Of a stretch of DNA of 34,300 nucleotides, positions 25,859 to 33,431 are shown in pieces. The stretch comes from Sphingobium sp. TKS (GTDB lineage Bacteria > Pseudomonadota > Alphaproteobacteria > Sphingomonadales > Sphingomonadaceae): positions 1 to 34,300 of the forward strand of contig NZ_CP005090.1 of assembly GCF_001563265.1 (NCBI RefSeq), given 5' to 3'. The notes under the pieces are model-generated. The model was not told the origin of the DNA and searched no databases. It saw only the letters and a program-made list of their open reading frames with translations. The position numbers and the translations under genes are program-made. Position 1 is the first letter of the stretch; each line of letters opens with the position of its first letter.

Positions 25859-28800
25859 CTATCGGCTCAATCCGCGATCGTGACTGATCCCCAACCCCCG
25901 CGACAGCTCGCGCCCAAGCTCGCGGCCCGGACTCATTCCGATCTCAAGCCCCAGCTCGCGGGTGCGACCGCGCAGGATCGATTCCACCTGGGGATCGCGC
26001 TCAAGGCTTTTCGCCATGCCCGCCATCTCCTGCCCGAGCGTCTTGCGGCCCGCCATGTCGCCGGCGCGATAAAGCCGGTCGCGATCCTGGGAGAGCTGTT
26101 GCCAGCGTTCCACGAACCGATCGGCGCGCAAGTTCGGATCGGCCCGCACGCGCGCCTCTTGGCGTATCGCCTCGATCATCGGGCCGCTGCGCCCCGCCGC
26201 CGCCTCGCGCAGCAAGCCGGAATCGCGCTTCATCGCCTCGGCCATATCGTCCGAAGCTCGCGGCCGGAGCGTGTCGAGCGCCTGAACCGCGCGCTCGAGC
26301 GCGACCTTCTGATGTTCCAGCACCGGCCCGCCCGACGCCCGCGCCTGCAACACCGCCTCCGCCGAACGCGAGGCCCGCTCGACCGCGCGCCGGAAATCGC
26401 GATCCTGGCCCTGCTCGGCCCGCGCGGGCAATTCCTTCGCCGGCTCCGGCGTCGGCGTGCGCTGGGGCAGTTTCAGCCCGTCAAACATGCCCCGCTTGGG
26501 AGCCGGCTTTTCCTTCGCACCCTGTGCTGGCTCGGCCGCCTTCACCGGCGCGGCCGACAGCTTCAAGCCGTCGAACATACCGCGCCGCGACTGACGCTCG
26601 GCCGCGGCCTTCGCCTCGCCGGCACCGCGGTCGCCGCCAATATCGGGCGTGCGGGAATCCTCGCCCATCTGGCGTGAAGTTCCCGCGCGGGGCGCGAGGA
26701 TCTCCACGCCCTTCCGCTCGGGTGCATCCGCAACGCGGATCTCACCCGACAGCCCGCGCCGATCGGCGAAGGATTGCGCCTCGGCATCGCGATCCCGATA
26801 CATCGGATAGTCGGACGCCATATCCTTCGCCCGCTCGCGCGACAGCGTGCGGACAAGCCGGCGATCGTCGGCGAAGTCATCGCGGCCGTAATGGAGCTGC
26901 ACCCCGTCGCGATGCCGGGACAGCGCCACATAGGCCGAATGGCGGTCCATGCCGGGGGTCGCCAGCACATGCGCCCGATCGACCGTCACGCCCTGCGATT
27001 TGTGGATGGTCGCCGCATAGCCATGATCGACATGGGCATAATCTTTCAGGTCGAACGCGACTTGACGGCCATCGTCCAACTTCACCGCCATGCTGTCGGG
27101 CGACACGCGCTCGACCTTGCCCAGCGTGCCGTTCTTCACCCCAAGGCCGCGATCGTTCTTGAGGAACATGATGCGGTCGCCGGTCGCGAACTCCCGCGCG
27201 CCCCGCTCGGCCGACACGCGCACGTCCTGGCCCAGCTCGCCGGCGTCGCGCAGCCGATCGCGCGCAGCCAGGTTCAGGTCGCGCACCTCGGCATTGGTAT
27301 GGGTGAGGATGATCCGCGTCTTGTCGGGATCGGCGATGCGAGCGCGATCCCAGCCCTCCACAAGGCTTTCCCGCGCAGCCTCGCGCGTCTCGGCCGCGTG
27401 GACCATGCCATGCTCGGCATAGGCATGGATCGCCTCGCCGGTGCGGCCTGTTGCGAGCGCCCGCGTGGCGTCTTTCTGCCAGTCCTCATGCTGCCGGCGA
27501 ACATCGCTGATCTCGGCCGCGCCGTAGCGCTCGGCCAGCGATCGGAACGCAGCGCCAGCCTCGATCGCCTGCAACTGCTCGGCGTCGCCGACAAGGATCA
27601 CCTTGGCCCCTGCCCGTTCGGCCTCGGACAGCACCCGCTCCATCTGGCGCGTGCCGATCATGCCGGCCTCGTCAATCACCAGCACGTCGCGCGGACCTAG
27701 CAGCTCGCGGCCCTGCTCCCACTGATATTCCATGCTGGCGATCGTGCGCGAGGCGATACCGGAACCGCCCTCAAGCCCCTCGGCCGCGATCCCCGACAAG
27801 GCCGCACCGCGCACCTGATAGCCCGCCCGCTCCCATTCGTCGCGCGCAACGCCCAGCATGGTCGATTTGCCGGTGCCGGCATAGCCGACGACAATTGCCA
27901 AGTCGTTCTTGCCGGTGATATGCGCGAGCGCGTCCTTCTGCTGGCTTCCCAGCGCAAGGCCAACCCTCTCGGCGGTGTCTCGCCCCCCCATTTTAGACGC
28001 CGCCGGGAGACCATGCCCGGCCCGATCCGCTAGGCCGTAGCCGGCGCGCTCCAACCGCTGCTCGGTGTCGATCATCTCGCGCGACGTGAACCGGTCCTCG
28101 CCGCGTCCGTCCTTCCCCAGCGCTACCAGCTCGGGCGAGGTCCGCACCGCGCTCATCACCTGATCGAACTGGTCCTTGCCGTCGCTATGCCGGAACGCGA
28201 ACTGCGCCAGGTCGCGCCGCGTGAACGTCGCCTGTTGGCGCGTGATCGCGTCGAGCGCGATTTGCGGATTGGCGATGATCTTCTCGCCATTCTCCCGCGC
28301 GATCCGGGCATGGTCCTCGACCCGCTCGGCCTCAAGCCCCTGTTCGGGCATACGCGACGCCGCCGGCCCGATCTTGTGCTGCGGCTCAAGCTCGATCCCC
28401 TGCGCCTCATAGCTGCGATGATCTATGCGCGCGTCTATATCCAGTTCGGCGAGGCGCTCGTTCACATGATCGGCCCACGCCTCGCGCCACTCCTGCAACA
28501 GCGCCGTGCTGTTCCACTCGCGCACCTTCTGGCCGAAGCCCTCCAGCCCTACCTCGCGCATCGACAGCATGACATGCGCGTGTGGCTTGGATTGCCCGTC
28601 CTTTCCCAAGTCCCAATGCACGTTCATGTCCGCGACCATGCCGCGCTCGACAAACTGCTTTTCGACAAAATCGCGGGCGAGCCGGATGCCCTCTTTCTGG
28701 TCCAGCTCGCGCGGAATCGAGAACTCGACTTCGCGGGCGAGCTGCGCGTCCTTGCGTTTCTCGCCCGCCTCGACCTCGTTCCATAGGGTCGCGCGATCGT

Positions 28801-28990
28801 TTAAACGCTCCGGTGTACCTTCGGGTAACATGATTTCCGAATGGACGACGCCGGCCTTGTTCGAGAAATCATGGTCGCGTCCTAGCCGGTCGTCGTGCAG
28901 CCGTTCCGCCGCACGATAGGCCGCGCTGGCAACGGCGCTCGATCCGTTGGCGCGACTGATGACCTTGGCCGAGAAATGGTAGATCGCCAT
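25859..28990 (-). CDS. traA: Conjugative relaxase/helicase TraA (MOBQ type)
   Basis: A 1,043-residue relaxase. The N-terminal MobA/MobL domain has the probable nicking Tyr25 (ASAAYRAAERL) and the metal site H125, H137 and H139 (NVHWD, PHAHVML). A RecD-type helicase follows, with Walker A VGYAGTGKST (about residue 375) and Walker B VLVIDEAGMIG. The C-terminal 300 residues include two copies of a GMFDGLKL motif. It nicks oriT and unwinds the transferred strand. ATG 28990 (MAIYHFSAKVISRANG) is the family start; an in-frame GTG at 29047 lies within the putative oriT. Domain order matches the Ti-plasmid TraA. Confidence 0.92.
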   Translation of the reverse strand: MAIYHFSAKVISRANGSSAVASAAYRAAERLHDDRLGRDHDFSNKAGVVHSEIMLPEGTPERLNDRATLWNEVEAGEKRKDAQLAREVEFSIPRELDQKEGIRLARDFVEKQFVERGMVADMNVHWDLGKDGQSKPHAHVMLSMREVGLEGFGQKVREWNSTALLQEWREAWADHVNERLAELDIDARIDHRSYEAQGIELEPQHKIGPAASRMPEQGLEAERVEDHARIARENGEKIIANPQIALDAITRQQATFTRRDLAQFAFRHSDGKDQFDQVMSAVRTSPELVALGKDGRGEDRFTSREMIDTEQRLERAGYGLADRAGHGLPAASKMGGRDTAERVGLALGSQQKDALAHITGKNDLAIVVGYAGTGKSTMLGVARDEWERAGYQVRGAALSGIAAEGLEGGSGIASRTIASMEYQWEQGRELLGPRDVLVIDEAGMIGTRQMERVLSEAERAGAKVILVGDAEQLQAIEAGAAFRSLAERYGAAEISDVRRQHEDWQKDATRALATGRTGEAIHAYAEHGMVHAAETREAARESLVEGWDRARIADPDKTRIILTHTNAEVRDLNLAARDRLRDAGELGQDVRVSAERGAREFATGDRIMFLKNDRGLGVKNGTLGKVERVSPDSMAVKLDDGRQVAFDLKDYAHVDHGYAATIHKSQGVTVDRAHVLATPGMDRHSAYVALSRHRDGVQLHYGRDDFADDRRLVRTLSRERAKDMASDYPMYRDRDAEAQSFADRRGLSGEIRVADAPERKGVEILAPRAGTSRQMGEDSRTPDIGGDRGAGEAKAAAERQSRRGMFDGLKLSAAPVKAAEPAQGAKEKPAPKRGMFDGLKLPQRTPTPEPAKELPARAEQGQDRDFRRAVERASRSAEAVLQARASGGPVLEHQKVALERAVQALDTLRPRASDDMAEAMKRDSGLLREAAAGRSGPMIEAIRQEARVRADPNLRADRFVERWQQLSQDRDRLYRAGDMAGRKTLGQEMAGMAKSLERDPQVESILRGRTRELGLEIGMSPGRELGRELSRGLGISHDRGLSR

Positions 28991-29019
28991 GACGGCCGCT
29001 ATACTGCCTTTCTTAGCGC

Positions 29020-29048
29020 ACGTCGGCAACGACGTATAAGCGCGCACT
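29020..29048 (+). other. oriT: Candidate origin of transfer (oriT nic region)
   Basis: An inverted repeat ACGTCG-GCAA-CGACGT (29020-29035) is followed by ATAAGCGCGCACT (29036-29048). This resembles the Ti-type nic core CGACGTATAATTGCGCCCT and the RSF1010 core TAAGTGCGCCCT, as recalled from the MOBQ family. The location, between divergent traA and traC-like genes, is also the same as on Ti plasmids. The nick would fall near 29042. Confidence 0.65.
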
Positions 29049-29164: not shown

Positions 29165-29470
29165 ATGCGTAAGGTCCGCGACTATGACGCCGAGTTGAAG
29201 GCGCTGGGCGACAAGGCCCGCGCCCTCAAGGCGAAGAAGGTCCAGCAGCTAGGCGAGCTGGTCACATCCACCGGGGCCGATGCGCTCGATCTCGATGTGC
29301 TGGCCGGGGTGCTGCTCGCCGCCGTCGAATCTGCCAGCGCCGACGAAAAGGAGGCGTGGCGCGCGAAGGGGTCCGCCTTCTTTCAAGGACGCGGCCGAAA
29401 GGCTGGCCGAAGCACTGGCGGCAACGCGGGAGGCGGAAGCAAAACTGGCGCAGGCGAGACGCAGGGTTGA
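29165..29470 (+). CDS. traC: Conjugal transfer protein, TraC-like
   Basis: A 101-residue protein. The N-terminus MRKVRDYDAELKALGDKARA is typical of the small transfer proteins coded next to oriT on rhizobial and sphingomonad plasmids (annotated TraC or TraD). Residues 1-35 should form a coiled coil; the tail is Gly-rich (GRSTGGNAGGGSKTGAG). The start at ATG 29165 has GAGGGAGAG directly upstream; an in-frame ATG at 29072 would overlap the region near oriT. It is thought to assist the relaxase at oriT. Confidence 0.75.
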   Translation: MRKVRDYDAELKALGDKARALKAKKVQQLGELVTSTGADALDLDVLAGVLLAAVESASADEKEAWRAKGSAFFQGRGRKAGRSTGGNAGGGSKTGAGETQG

Positions 29471-29726
29471 AGCCGCACAGCGCCGCACCGATACGAGGGA
29501 ATGGGCCGTGGCTCGCCGCGAACGCACCCGCCACCTCATAGAGCTGGGCGGCCTGGTCCAGAAAGCCGGCTTGGTCGAGCTGGCCGACGACGATCGCGCC
29601 ACCCTCTACGGCGCGCTGCTCGAACTGGCCGCCAAGGCGCGCGAGGACCGCGACCGGCTCATGCTCTGGAAGCGGCGCGGCAAGCGCGCGTTCGACGCGG
29701 AAGCGGAAGGGAGAGACGCACCATGA
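29280..29726 (+). CDS. traD: Conjugal transfer protein, TraD-like
   Basis: The C-terminal part, from about residue 76, carries the TraD pattern ERTRHLIELGGLVQKAGLVE ... LMLWKRRGKRAFDAEAEG. Before it lies an Ala/Glu/Arg-rich coiled coil (KDAAERLAEALAATREAEAK). The start is uncertain: ATG 29280 and 29295 lie deep inside the TraC-like gene in another frame, and the next standard start, GTG 29508, would cut off the coiled coil. A true start near 29370, possibly non-ATG, or coupling with the upstream gene is likely. The stop overlaps the next ATG (ATGA). Confidence 0.65.
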   Translation: MRSISMCWPGCCSPPSNLPAPTKRRRGARRGPPSFKDAAERLAEALAATREAEAKLAQARRRVEAAQRRTDTREWAVARRERTRHLIELGGLVQKAGLVELADDDRATLYGALLELAAKAREDRDRLMLWKRRGKRAFDAEAEGRDAP

Positions 29727-30004
29727 ACAGGCTCGATGTCGAAGCGATCCGCGCCCAGGTCCGCGCGCTCGATTTCACGCGCGGCACCCCGGCCGAAGTC
29801 GCGCTATGGCGCGAGGACGATGCCGACGCACGCGCCAATCTCGCGATCGAAGGCATGGACCTCGACTTGGCTGAACACGCCCTGTTCGACATGCTCCGCG
29901 AGGAATCCGTGCCCCCTCCCCTCGCCACCGCGATCGTCCTCAAGCTCCTCGATCATCCCGACGCCGACCCGACGCTGGCGATCTCGCCGGCGACGATCGG
30001 ATGA
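29723..30004 (+). CDS. Small VbhA-antitoxin-like protein 1
   Basis: A 93-residue acidic protein. The segment ADARANLAIEGMDLDLAEHA resembles the inhibitory helix of VbhA-type antitoxins, whose motif is (S/T)xxxE(G/N); here the Glu-Gly is kept but the Ser/Thr is Asn. It overlaps traD at its start and the nucleotidyltransferase gene at its stop, both by ATGA, so the three are translationally coupled. No Fic-domain partner is present. Resemblance is by motif only; it might instead regulate the nucleotidyltransferase-HEPN protein that follows. Confidence 0.5.
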   Translation: MNRLDVEAIRAQVRALDFTRGTPAEVALWREDDADARANLAIEGMDLDLAEHALFDMLREESVPPPLATAIVLKLLDHPDADPTLAISPATIG

Positions 30005-30936
30005 CGATGCGGACCGGCCTCGACCATCTGCCCGCCGTCAAGCGCCGCGAGCTGGAACGGGTCGCCCGCGTCCTGTTCGATGAATTTGAGGATGCCGTCA
30101 AAACCAAGCTCTCGGACAAGCGCAAGGGCGGCCGCATCCTCAAGCTGATCCTGTTCGGCTCCTACGCACGCGGCGATTGGGTCGAGGATCGCGCCAGCGG
30201 TTACATTTCCGATTATGACCTGCTCGTCGTCGTCAACGCCGACACCTTCACCGATCTGCAAACATGGTGGGCGGTCGCCGACGATCATCTGGTGCGCGAG
30301 CTGACCGTCACCAGGCACCTCGCCACACCCGTCAATTTCATCGTGCATTCGCTGATGGACGTGAACGACCAGCTCGCGCGCGGCCGTCCCTTCTTCGCCG
30401 ACATAGCCCGCGACGGCATCGCCCTCTACGAAGCGCCAGGGCAAGCCCTCGCCGTGCCGCGCCAGCTCGACGCGCAGGAACGCCACGCCGAAGCCCTGCG
30501 CCATCGCGACCACTGGTTCCCGCTCGCCGCGCACGCGCTCAAGCTCGCCCGGGACAGCATTGCCGATGGCGTGCCGCGCGATGCCGCGTTCATGCTCCAC
30601 CAGGCCGTCGAGCGGGTCTATAACGCCGTGCTGCTCGTCCTGACGCTCTACGCGCCCAAATCGCACCGTCTCGGCATCCTGCGCTCGCTCGCCGAAAATC
30701 TCGATCCCCGGCTGATCGAAGCCTGGCCGCGCGATACCCGCGCCGCCCGCCGCCATTTCGCGCAGTTGCAGCGCGCCTATGTCGAGGCCCGCTATTCCCA
30801 TGCCTATGAAATCACCGCCGACGAACTGGCCTGGCTCGTTGACCGCGTGAAGCATCTCCACACGATCGCCGGCGCGATCTGCGCCGAACACCTCGCCGGC
30901 GACGACACCCCCGAGAAAAGCCCCGCCGATGAATGA
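30001..30936 (+). CDS. Nucleotidyltransferase-HEPN fusion protein
   Basis: A 311-residue protein. Residues 45-80 contain the polymerase-beta-type nucleotidyltransferase motif: GSYARGDW (53-60) and SDYDLLVVV with D71 and D73. Residues about 160-300 form a HEPN-like helical domain (AFMLHQAVERVYNAVLLVL, then EARYSHAYEITADEL with the RxxH-like pattern). Fused or paired MNT-HEPN proteins are often toxin-antitoxin or stress modules in which the transferase modifies the HEPN RNase. Its ATG overlaps the preceding stop, and its own 3' end overlaps the next small gene by eight bases. Finding it inside a transfer operon is unusual. Confidence 0.7.
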   Translation: MTMRTGLDHLPAVKRRELERVARVLFDEFEDAVKTKLSDKRKGGRILKLILFGSYARGDWVEDRASGYISDYDLLVVVNADTFTDLQTWWAVADDHLVRELTVTRHLATPVNFIVHSLMDVNDQLARGRPFFADIARDGIALYEAPGQALAVPRQLDAQERHAEALRHRDHWFPLAAHALKLARDSIADGVPRDAAFMLHQAVERVYNAVLLVLTLYAPKSHRLGILRSLAENLDPRLIEAWPRDTRAARRHFAQLQRAYVEARYSHAYEITADELAWLVDRVKHLHTIAGAICAEHLAGDDTPEKSPADE

Positions 30937-31201
30937 GCATCCCATATCGGACGACGAACGCGCCCGACGCCAGAAGGCGATCGATTTCGCGCGGACCAAT
31001 ATCGAGCTGTCGGGCTTCGCTCTCTCGCCGGGAATGGCGGCGCTGGGCGTCCGGTTCGTCGCCGGCGAACTCTCCGAAAGCGAATACATCGCCGCCGCGC
31101 TCGCTCATGCCAACAGCCTGCCCGCAAGCGCGCCGGCGCAGGACTATTTCGCCAGCCTCGCAGAACTCGAAGCCGCATGGGAGGCCCGCGATCGGCCGTG
31201 A
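30929..31201 (+). CDS. Small VbhA-antitoxin-like protein 2
   Basis: A 90-residue protein with the VbhA-family layout: RRQKAIDFARTNIELSGFAL, then a helix and FVAGELSESEYIAAAL. At the position of the inhibitory motif it has N-x-x-x-S-G in place of (S/T)xxxE(G/N), so both hallmark residues have changed and it could not block a Fic enzyme in the known way. It starts inside the end of the nucleotidyltransferase-HEPN gene and ends 42 bp before traG. It may have a role in that module or in transfer. Confidence 0.6.
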   Translation: MNEHPISDDERARRQKAIDFARTNIELSGFALSPGMAALGVRFVAGELSESEYIAAALAHANSLPASAPAQDYFASLAELEAAWEARDRP

Positions 31202-31243: not shown

Positions 31244-32923
31244 ATGATGGAATGGTTCCGCCAGCTCGGCCGCGCGATCCGTAACCTTGCGCGCATCGCG
31301 CGGACCAACCCGATATGGGCGATCACCGCCCTTGTGGTCAGCCCGGTCGCCCTCATCCGCCATCTGTTCGGCGTCCTGGTGCTGTTCCTCATCACCGCCC
31401 TGGTGCTGGGGCTTGGGGTGCCGCTCATCCTCGGCAAGCTGCTCGGCCTGCCCCGCGATTCCAATATCTACCAGATCGTGATGATGCTGACGGGCCTGGT
31501 CATCTTCCTCGTCACGCTGCGCGCCCTCTTCCAACCGCTGATCCTGCGTTATGGCGGTCCTGCCGGCGACGACACGCACGGCTCGGCCCGTTTCGCCACC
31601 GATCGCGAGACAAAGCCCCTCGCCCAAAATGGCGACGGCCTGCTGATCGGTCGTGATCGCAAGTCGGGCAAGCTGCTGCGCTACGCCGGCCCCTCCCATC
31701 TGCTGACGATCGCGCCGACGCGCACCGGCAAGGGCGTGGGGACCATCATTCCCAATCTGCTCGACTATCCCGGTTCGGTCATCTGCATCGACCCCAAGGG
31801 CGAGAACGCCCGCATCACCGCCCGCCATCGCGCCAGGTTCGGCCCGGTCCATGTCCTCGATCCCTTCGGGGTGACGGGCATCGCCTCGGCCGCGTTCAAC
31901 CCGCTCGATCGCCTCGACCCTGCCGGCCTCGATCTCGCCGACGACGCGATGACTCTGGCCGATGCGCTGGTCTATGACGCTCCCGGCGAAGCCGGCGAGG
32001 CGCATTGGAACGAGGAAGCCAAGGCGCTGATCGCCGGCATCCTCCTGTGGGTGGCCTGTGACCCGCAAGCGCAAGGCCAGGATCGCACGCTGGAAGCCCT
32101 GCGCGACTGCCTCACCTTCGCCCCTGATAATTTCCAGCGGATGCTGCGGGAAATGTCGCGCAGCACGCAGGCGCGGGGCCTGATCGCGCGTGCCGCCAAC
32201 CGCCACCTGGGCAAGTCCGACCGCGAGGCAGCCGGCGTGCTGTCGGCCGCGCAGCGCCATACCCATTTTCTCGATTCCCCGCGCATGTCGGCCGTGCTGG
32301 GCCGCTCGGATTTCACCTTCGCCGATGTGAAGGCGCAGCCCACAACCGTTTATCTGGTGCTGCCGCCCGATCGGCTCGCCACCTATGCCCGCTGGCTGCG
32401 CCTGATGCTGGCGCAAGGGCTGACCGATCTGGCGCGCGCACCCGCCTCCCCTGCCCGCCCCGTCCTGTTCCTGCTCGATGAATTTGCCGCGCTCGGCCGC
32501 CTCGAACCTGTCGAGCGCGCTATGGGCCTGATGGCCGGTTACGGCATCCAGCTCTGGCCGATCTTGCAGGACGTTCACCAGCTCCGCGCGCTCTACGAGC
32601 GCCGCGCCGGCACCTTCCTGTCCAACGCCGGCGTCTTGCAGATATTCGGGGTCAACGATCACGACAGCGCCAAGCTCGTCTCCGATCTGCTCGGCCAGGA
32701 GACGGTCGTGTTCGAGACCATGAGCCGCGCGATCGACGCGGAGGAAACCGGCATATCGTTCGGGTCGCAGCATGTCGCGCGGCCCCTACTCACGCCCGAT
32801 GAGGTCCGCACCATGCCGGCCAATCTGGAATTGTTGTTCCTCGCGGGGCAACGCCCGATCGTCGCGACCAAGCTCGCTTACTATGCCGATCGCGAGTTCG
32901 CCGGGAGATTCGACAAACCGTGA
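31244..32923 (+). CDS. traG: Type IV coupling protein TraG (VirD4 family)
   Basis: A 559-residue coupling protein. The N-terminus has membrane segments at about residues 24-66 and 76-95; Walker A is APTRTGKG (157-164) and Walker B is VLFLLDEFAALG (about 405-416). It docks the relaxase-DNA complex onto a type IV secretion channel. GGAGGGAG lies ten bases upstream of the ATG, which is followed by a second ATG. No virB/trb channel genes occur on the plasmid, so it must work with a secretion system coded elsewhere. Confidence 0.92.
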   Translation: MMEWFRQLGRAIRNLARIARTNPIWAITALVVSPVALIRHLFGVLVLFLITALVLGLGVPLILGKLLGLPRDSNIYQIVMMLTGLVIFLVTLRALFQPLILRYGGPAGDDTHGSARFATDRETKPLAQNGDGLLIGRDRKSGKLLRYAGPSHLLTIAPTRTGKGVGTIIPNLLDYPGSVICIDPKGENARITARHRARFGPVHVLDPFGVTGIASAAFNPLDRLDPAGLDLADDAMTLADALVYDAPGEAGEAHWNEEAKALIAGILLWVACDPQAQGQDRTLEALRDCLTFAPDNFQRMLREMSRSTQARGLIARAANRHLGKSDREAAGVLSAAQRHTHFLDSPRMSAVLGRSDFTFADVKAQPTTVYLVLPPDRLATYARWLRLMLAQGLTDLARAPASPARPVLFLLDEFAALGRLEPVERAMGLMAGYGIQLWPILQDVHQLRALYERRAGTFLSNAGVLQIFGVNDHDSAKLVSDLLGQETVVFETMSRAIDAEETGISFGSQHVARPLLTPDEVRTMPANLELLFLAGQRPIVATKLAYYADREFAGRFDKP

Positions 32924-32999: not shown

Positions 33000-33431
33000 A
33001 TGGATCAGCGCGTCATTGATCTTTGGGACCGGCTCATGGCCTATGGAGAGAGCGGTTCCGCCCCTCTCCCCGCGATCCGCGATGAAGTGTTGGAGCTGCA
33101 CGCGGCGATTACCGATGAGGAAAGCCGGCTTGGCCTCATGCGGATATTCAATCTCGTTTGCGACCTGGTGGCCGTGCATCTCCAAGAGACGAACGGCAAT
33201 GTTGAAGCCTTCGCCCAACACCGCCAGGGCCAGATATGGATGTTCCTGCGCGCGGAATGCCTTGTCGATGGCGTGCTGGACCGGGACCGGCTGCGGTATG
33301 TGACCGGGCGCGAGGTGCAGGCCGGTCGCATGACGGAGGATGATCCGCTGCGCCGCTACGCATTGGGCGATGACTCCGCCTTTGATGGGCTTATGGCAGC
33401 GCCGCCGCCACAGAAGCGGACGCGCCATTAG
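33000..33431 (+). CDS. Hypothetical protein
   Basis: A 143-residue, mostly helical, soluble protein that I do not recognise. Nothing suggests a signal peptide, membrane segment or DNA-binding motif. AAGGATAGG directly upstream of ATG 33000 is a plausible ribosome-binding site, and a stem-loop follows the stop by about 22 bp. It stands 76 bp after traG and could be expressed with it or alone. Position between the transfer and origin regions is its only context. Confidence 0.65.
   Translation: MDQRVIDLWDRLMAYGESGSAPLPAIRDEVLELHAAITDEESRLGLMRIFNLVCDLVAVHLQETNGNVEAFAQHRQGQIWMFLRAECLVDGVLDRDRLRYVTGREVQAGRMTEDDPLRRYALGDDSAFDGLMAAPPPQKRTRH

Follow-up and report, generated by a model that had tools for sequence, protein, structure and literature searches.

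A probable orphan FicA-type antitoxin recurs in the transfer operon of sphingomonad plasmids

Class I Fic modules are arranged with the antitoxin gene before the toxin gene, in the order ficA-ficT, and in EcFicA the inhibition motif stands at the end of the first helix and reaches into the active site of Fic (PMC5033356). A conjugative T4SS exports the Fic toxin VbhT, whose plasmid, pVbh, carries four orphan antitoxins for which an anti-addiction role has been proposed (PMC5675462, Harms and others 2017). In the leading region, across oriT from the relaxase, anti-defence genes and orphan antitoxins are enriched, and its anti-defence families can be transcribed from the single strand as it enters (PMC11541004). 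The type VII system HepT/MntA consists of separate toxin and antitoxin genes and is marked by the motif RX4HXY in HEPN and by GSX10DXD. Within the titles and abstract openings searched, in literature mostly outside subscription journals, we found no description of an orphan Fic antitoxin in a traD-traG operon.

The window analysed here is one whole contig of 34,300 bases (C8 of genome G000) carrying a conjugative plasmid. Its relaxase gene, traA (25859..29047, minus strand), is an ORF of the Ti-type MOBQ kind whose homologues are annotated as Ti-type conjugative transfer relaxase TraA, and it is transcribed divergently from a plus-strand series of transfer genes. This series opens with two copies of traD, the first TraC/TraD-like (29165..29470; Pfam TraD, 60.8 bits on the longer ORF) and the second at 29508..29726 (79.9 bits, likewise on the longer ORF), and reaches traG, the type IV coupling protein gene (31247..32923; Pfam T4SS-DNA_transf, 280.8 bits); the starts of both traD copies and of traG were taken from the pISP3 annotation. 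A preliminary description of the locus had placed three overlapping genes between traD and traG, and their coordinates stand: gene A (29723..30004), an MNT-HEPN fusion (30001..30936) and gene B (30929..31201), all on the plus strand. Overlaps of 4 bp join the second traD to A and A to MNT-HEPN, MNT-HEPN and B overlap by 8 bp, and traG is next. The order is identical on pISP3 of Sphingomonas sp. MM-1, where the three are annotated as hypothetical, HEPN domain-containing and antitoxin VbhA family, and by tblastn all three occur at ≥99% identity in one set of six plasmids. The substitution pattern supports all three as real genes, with dN/dS of 0.22-0.71 for A (10 pairs), 0.12-0.38 for MNT-HEPN (15 pairs) and 0.42 for B (one pair). 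Our favoured reading, which we hold to be fairly probable, is that sphingomonad MOBQ/MPF_T plasmids recurrently carry an orphan FicA-type antitoxin within their transfer operon, where it would give Fic immunity in trans, and that its neighbors in the slot are optional passengers.

The motif of A reads N39-LAI-E43-G44. Compared with the class I Fic antitoxin pattern [S/T]xxxE[G/N], the strict form fails; Glu and Gly are kept and N stands for S/T, as had been proposed. A Pfam search with gene A returned no match, PF18495 included, and a Fic-linked relative of A scored 13.2 bits against PF18495, under the cut-off. Among the 120 homologues listed of 324 found, which were gathered by a word search independent of the motif, N and E are each kept in 118/120. 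In the locus rows, where the motif counts are biased because one of the two patterns used in the genome-contig scan (79 loci) contains the motif, N and E are kept in 68/68 tra rows, though no Fic gene adjoins them, while Fic-linked rows keep N in 14/14 and E in 13/14. The persistence of N across homologues, tra rows and Fic-linked rows argues that this residue is the norm of the lineage and not a sign of decay, and since all 14 Fic-linked rows share it, the strict pattern fails for the whole sampled lineage. N in place of S/T may nevertheless affect Fic inhibition, and this, like the lack of a PF18495 match, counts against the favoured reading. In a profile comparison, N39, E43 and G44 fall weakly in register with the S, E and G of VbhA (p 0.0046, probability 7.5%). 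The AlphaFold2 model of A is confident (mean pLDDT 89) and helical, with a helix at 23-42 that terminates at the motif and two more helices after it. In this model the motif of A closes a long helix on its C-terminal side, as that of EcFicA does.

Scanning genome contigs for A yielded 79 loci, whose settings were assigned by our own classification. A lies 3' of a same-strand traD ORF in 62/79, with a TraG match within the stretch in 53/62 of these; it stands directly 5' of a Fic gene in 12/79, beside a mobQ-type relaxase in 3/79 and elsewhere in 2/79. The 12 Fic-linked loci share the ficA-ficT order of class I modules, and together with L002 and L026 from the window's own genome they make up the 14 A-Fic rows. 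The one Fic protein tested against solved structures, that next to A in L105, has VbhT as its best match (E about 1e-30). On the strength of relatives placed immediately 5' of Fic genes, and of the VbhT match of one such Fic, A is most likely a FicA/VbhA-type antitoxin, an orphan captured by the transfer operon. It resembles the FicTA/VbhTA systems in the position of its relatives 5' of fic, in the retained Glu and Gly and in the predicted helix-end motif; it differs in having no adjacent fic, in carrying N for S/T, in falling outside PF18495 and in its usual place behind traD.

Further settings and remnants of A were also seen. On other plasmids or contigs, relatives in L003, L100, L102 and L104 adjoin mobQ-type relaxases with no Fic match in reach, a third orphan setting. 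Twelve of the A-linked Fic genes were read for the Fic motif (L099 and L110 left out), and HPFREGNGR is found in 11; the exception is the copy on contig C4 of the window's genome, which reads HPFRAGNAR and whose antitoxin carries T for Glu. In that copy (L026 5405-7025, minus strand) an A paralogue with the motif NLAITG, its Glu lost, lies 5' of a Fic gene with the decayed motif HPFRAGNARTLR, and judging from these motifs toxin and A-type antitoxin seem to have decayed together. On contig C5 (L025 5760-6200, minus strand), and also in L091 and L092, A matches over its first 63 residues only and then continues, in another frame, across the end of traG; these three loci appear to share a deletion that removed the last part of A and most of traG.

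A tree of 65 A proteins, built from an alignment of few columns, requires the tra label to change three times. Its main tra clade holds 45 rows (43 tra and 2 other; support 99/94), and the pair L107/L108 sits apart from it, inside a Fic-linked clade. The simplest reading of this topology is that A may have entered the transfer operon by two captures from Fic-linked ancestors; one gain with two losses, or an ancestral tra setting to which Fic was added later, are alternatives that we do not favor. Within the tra rows the gene is fitted closely into its surroundings, abutting or overlapping traD within 20 bp in 42/68 and traG in 43/68; no traG was found 3' of A in 14/68.

In the gap between traA and traD, at 29020..29048 on the plus strand, lies an oriT-like core in which a 6-bp hairpin (ACGTCG-GCAA-CGACGT) is followed by the TAAG-type nick sequence TATAAGCGCG/CACT, the slash marking the predicted nick after 29044 on the plus strand. 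With both strands searched, the hairpin and nick sequence occur once in the window. Among 88 loci with a TraA start region, the pair reads away from traA in 72/88 and toward it in 0/88, and by our rule is absent from 16/88. The hairpin stems differ among lineages, with compensating changes on both sides. Four plasmids (L009, L137, L140 and L142) show TAAGTGCGCCCT. For the polarity of transfer we assume the RSF1010 rule, by which the plus strand, cut after 29044, is led into the recipient by its 5' end. From the position of the oriT-like site and this polarity, the slot lies opposite the relaxase relative to oriT and probably enters the recipient first. The starts of A, MNT-HEPN and B are 679, 957 and 1,885 bases from the predicted nick, and the sense strand of all three is the predicted transferred strand, so that they would be unreadable from the incoming single strand.

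The window slot thus agrees with the leading-region establishment genes in its side of oriT, opposite the relaxase, and its genes differ from them in being, by this prediction, untranscribable from the incoming single strand (PMC11541004), a point against the favoured reading. A is likewise comparable to the orphan antitoxins of pVbh (PMC5675462) and of the leading region (PMC11541004), which are also toxin-less, on conjugative plasmids and near oriT opposite the relaxase; unlike them, A recurs within a traD-traG operon and has its sense strand on the predicted transferred strand. The earlier suggestion that the locus protects the incoming plasmid would fit an orphan antitoxin placed 0.7 kb from oriT, opposite the relaxase.

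In the mechanism that we propose, A would bind VbhT-like Fic AMP-transferases encoded by other replicons, with Glu43 inserted into the Fic active site, where it would pair in a salt bridge with the Fic motif's second Arg. Donor and new transconjugant would in this way become immune to Fic toxins, which would amount to immunity in trans or anti-addiction. As the gene overlaps traD and lies ahead of traG, this immunity would presumably be produced upon plasmid transfer. A Fic-domain search of the whole genome found Fic at 7 places and none on the window's contig, which bears out the earlier statement that the locus has no Fic toxin. Contig C7 of the same genome does carry an intact Fic of this kind, which shares 40% identity with that of L105. 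This C7 Fic is preceded by an antitoxin-like ORF of its own, with the motif NCKIEG, and A may not fit the C7 toxin, since this ORF has no detectable similarity to A (the search found only itself). Among 397 related genomes, A occurs in 14, this Fic type in 9 and both in 5; as 4/5 of the co-occurrences are linked A-Fic pairs, same-cell targets in trans are shown in few genomes.

The export of VbhT through a conjugative T4SS, reported in PMC5675462, allows another use for A, as a chaperone or handler of a VbhT-like Fic substrate of the T4SS and not as an immunity factor. Its place next to traG would then reflect the delivery of substrates by the coupling protein, and the close spacing of A and traG in 43 of the tra rows is in keeping with this. 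We nevertheless consider such a role quite unlikely, for the window's contig has no Fic gene to supply the substrate, and in four Fic proteins of this group (L105, L002, L026 and L027) no Pfam domain besides Fic was found at E 0.1, leaving no export domain recognised.

The MNT-HEPN protein is a single ORF of 311 aa that holds both domains, with Pfam scores of 46.2 bits for HEPN and 25.3 bits for NTP_transf_2, and the fusion named in the preliminary description is thereby borne out. The proposed analogy to toxin-antitoxin systems fares less well. GS and DxD are conserved, with a gap of 16 residues in place of the 10 of HepT/MntA, and both domains are in one chain where HepT and MntA are encoded separately. 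At the HEPN position of RX4HXY the sequence reads R264-Y-S-x-x-Y269, with Y at 269 in 116/120 close sequences (4 gaps) and 26/28 distant ones, and the RNase motif of HepT/MntA is absent at this expected place. The toxin side of the analogy has no support from sequence, since the RNase motif is missing where its arginine is expected. The AlphaFold2 model (pLDDT 91) and its structural matches show a two-domain architecture resembling that of single-chain nucleotidyltransferases with a HEPN-like C-domain, namely AadA, ANT(4), KNTase and Hailong HalB. A HepT/MntA pair is unlikely on both grounds, the missing RNase motif and the single-chain architecture.

TraA, TraD or TraG lies ≤3.5 kb from MNT-HEPN in 20/21 rows at ≥59% identity and in 7/28 rows below it, counts that are descriptive because the 49 rows were picked by similarity, include near copies, one contig fetched twice and overlapping stretches, and in L030-L033 have flanks of just about 1.5 kb. 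Where a TraA ORF of ≥250 aa is in reach, MNT-HEPN is on the oriT side of TraA in 21/21 loci, oriented toward oriT in 4/21. The arrangement is traD-A-MNT-HEPN-traG in the window, and traG followed by MNT-HEPN on pAgK84, pAt3 and Asticcacaulis and Roseateles plasmids. On a tree of 39 MNT-HEPN proteins the tra label needs 9 changes. Copies at 84-88% identity in the traD-traG slot of L118, L119, L120 and L151 look broken or truncated, and the gene may be lost often. The window's genome also carries, on contig C1 (2247729-2249614), two tandem chromosomal MNT-HEPN genes 38-40% identical to that of the window, one of them with R264-x5-H; no transfer genes were found within the short stretch read around this pair.

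Gene B scores 22.2 bits against Pfam PF18495 (VbhA), below the cut-off of 25.9, and PF18495 is given in the database entries of 9/21 B homologues listed. It aligns without gaps with VbhA proteins that are linked to Fic in Lichenicola and in genome G028 and read SVRxEG where B reads NIELSG (N24-IEL-S28-G29). These alignments, with the Fic-linked relatives of A, uphold the earlier view that A and B belong with Fic antitoxins, and both hallmark residues of B are changed as had been noted, S/T to N and E to S, with the G kept. Ser replaces the inhibitory Glu in 16/16 B sequences and also in a relative on pSHV2. B is rare, with a match at E 0.001 in 4/397 family genomes, the window's own included. 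By its sequence B is a VbhA descendant in which the inhibitory Glu is lost, and it would be unable to block Fic by this residue. It may still bind Fic, and any role that we assign to B is one that we infer.

The preliminary description had gone further and joined the three genes into a three-part module, in which MNT-HEPN, as a toxin or modifying enzyme restrained by A and B, acts on transfer or on recipients. The gene overlaps do suggest co-translation, and the trio is held at ≥99% in the six plasmids mentioned above. Linkage may also reach further: relatives of MNT-HEPN and B at 73-84% identity lie on contigs of equal size (P0012/P0245, 79,000 bases; P0011/P0250, 13,717 bases), as do relatives of A and B (P0126/P0244, both on 2,275-base contigs), and these matching sizes suggest that linkage persists in a few diverged plasmids. 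Even HEPN proteins lacking the RNase motif were moreover scored toxic in a genome-scale screen, according to PMC3710099. The conservation survey, however, shows the genes to be largely unlinked, and the module was not borne out. Among the 62 tra loci holding A, MNT-HEPN is present in 4 (L034, L039, L040 and L041) and B in 1 (L034); MNT-HEPN was not seen in the other 58/62, of which the stretches L044, L047 and L093 end <100 bases past A. Each gene is found in tra regions without the others: in the parts read of rhizobial, Asticcacaulis and Roseateles plasmids MNT-HEPN adjoins tra genes and neither A nor B is present, and the pSHV2 slot, bounded by traD and by a traG whose reading is split over several frames, holds a B relative without A or MNT-HEPN. 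With A and B related to Fic antitoxins, and with the RNase motif missing at R264, a three-part module appears quite unlikely.

The varied contents of the slot could instead mean that it is a tolerant insertion site, whose occupants A, MNT-HEPN and B ride along by co-transcription and have no function in transfer. Different plasmids do hold different genes there: SIMPL is found in 12 loci, and an AAA gene, short genes of unknown kind and several unrelated ORFs also occur. For A this seems unlikely: the gene is recurrent, dN/dS is below 1 in 10/10 pairs, the motif is almost invariant and, on the simplest reading of the tree, A reached the slot twice independently. The best reading is that MNT-HEPN and B are passengers of the slot, MNT-HEPN having a history of its own beside oriT, and that A, as a Fic antitoxin, is the recurrent part. 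A wider reading that we offer tentatively, as a possibility, is a conjugation operon with dedicated Fic immunity: the orphan antitoxin would have become a regular member of the relaxosome/coupling-protein operon and would cover each transfer against the Fic toxins of recipients, of rival plasmids or sent through a T4SS, and MNT-HEPN, which recurs on this side of oriT in alphaproteobacterial MOBQ plasmids, would be another establishment factor, nucleotidylating a component of the host or of a defence system.

That one Fic antitoxin lineage recurs in the transfer operon of many plasmids, with its inhibitory residue kept and no toxin beside it, allows the anti-addiction idea to be tested with two simple partners, A and the Fic toxins of sphingomonads. 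The recurrence of MNT-HEPN beside oriT marks it as a candidate plasmid establishment enzyme unexplained by the HepT/MntA model.

Two further genes near traG were observed repeatedly. The SIMPL-domain (DUF541) gene of the traD-traG slot lies at 5933-6649 in L004 and recurs in 11 more loci. In the window, 3' of traG, positions 33000-33431 encode a 143-aa protein with no match in Pfam or NCBIfam; L004, L023 and L119 are among the relatives that have a match to it beyond traG.
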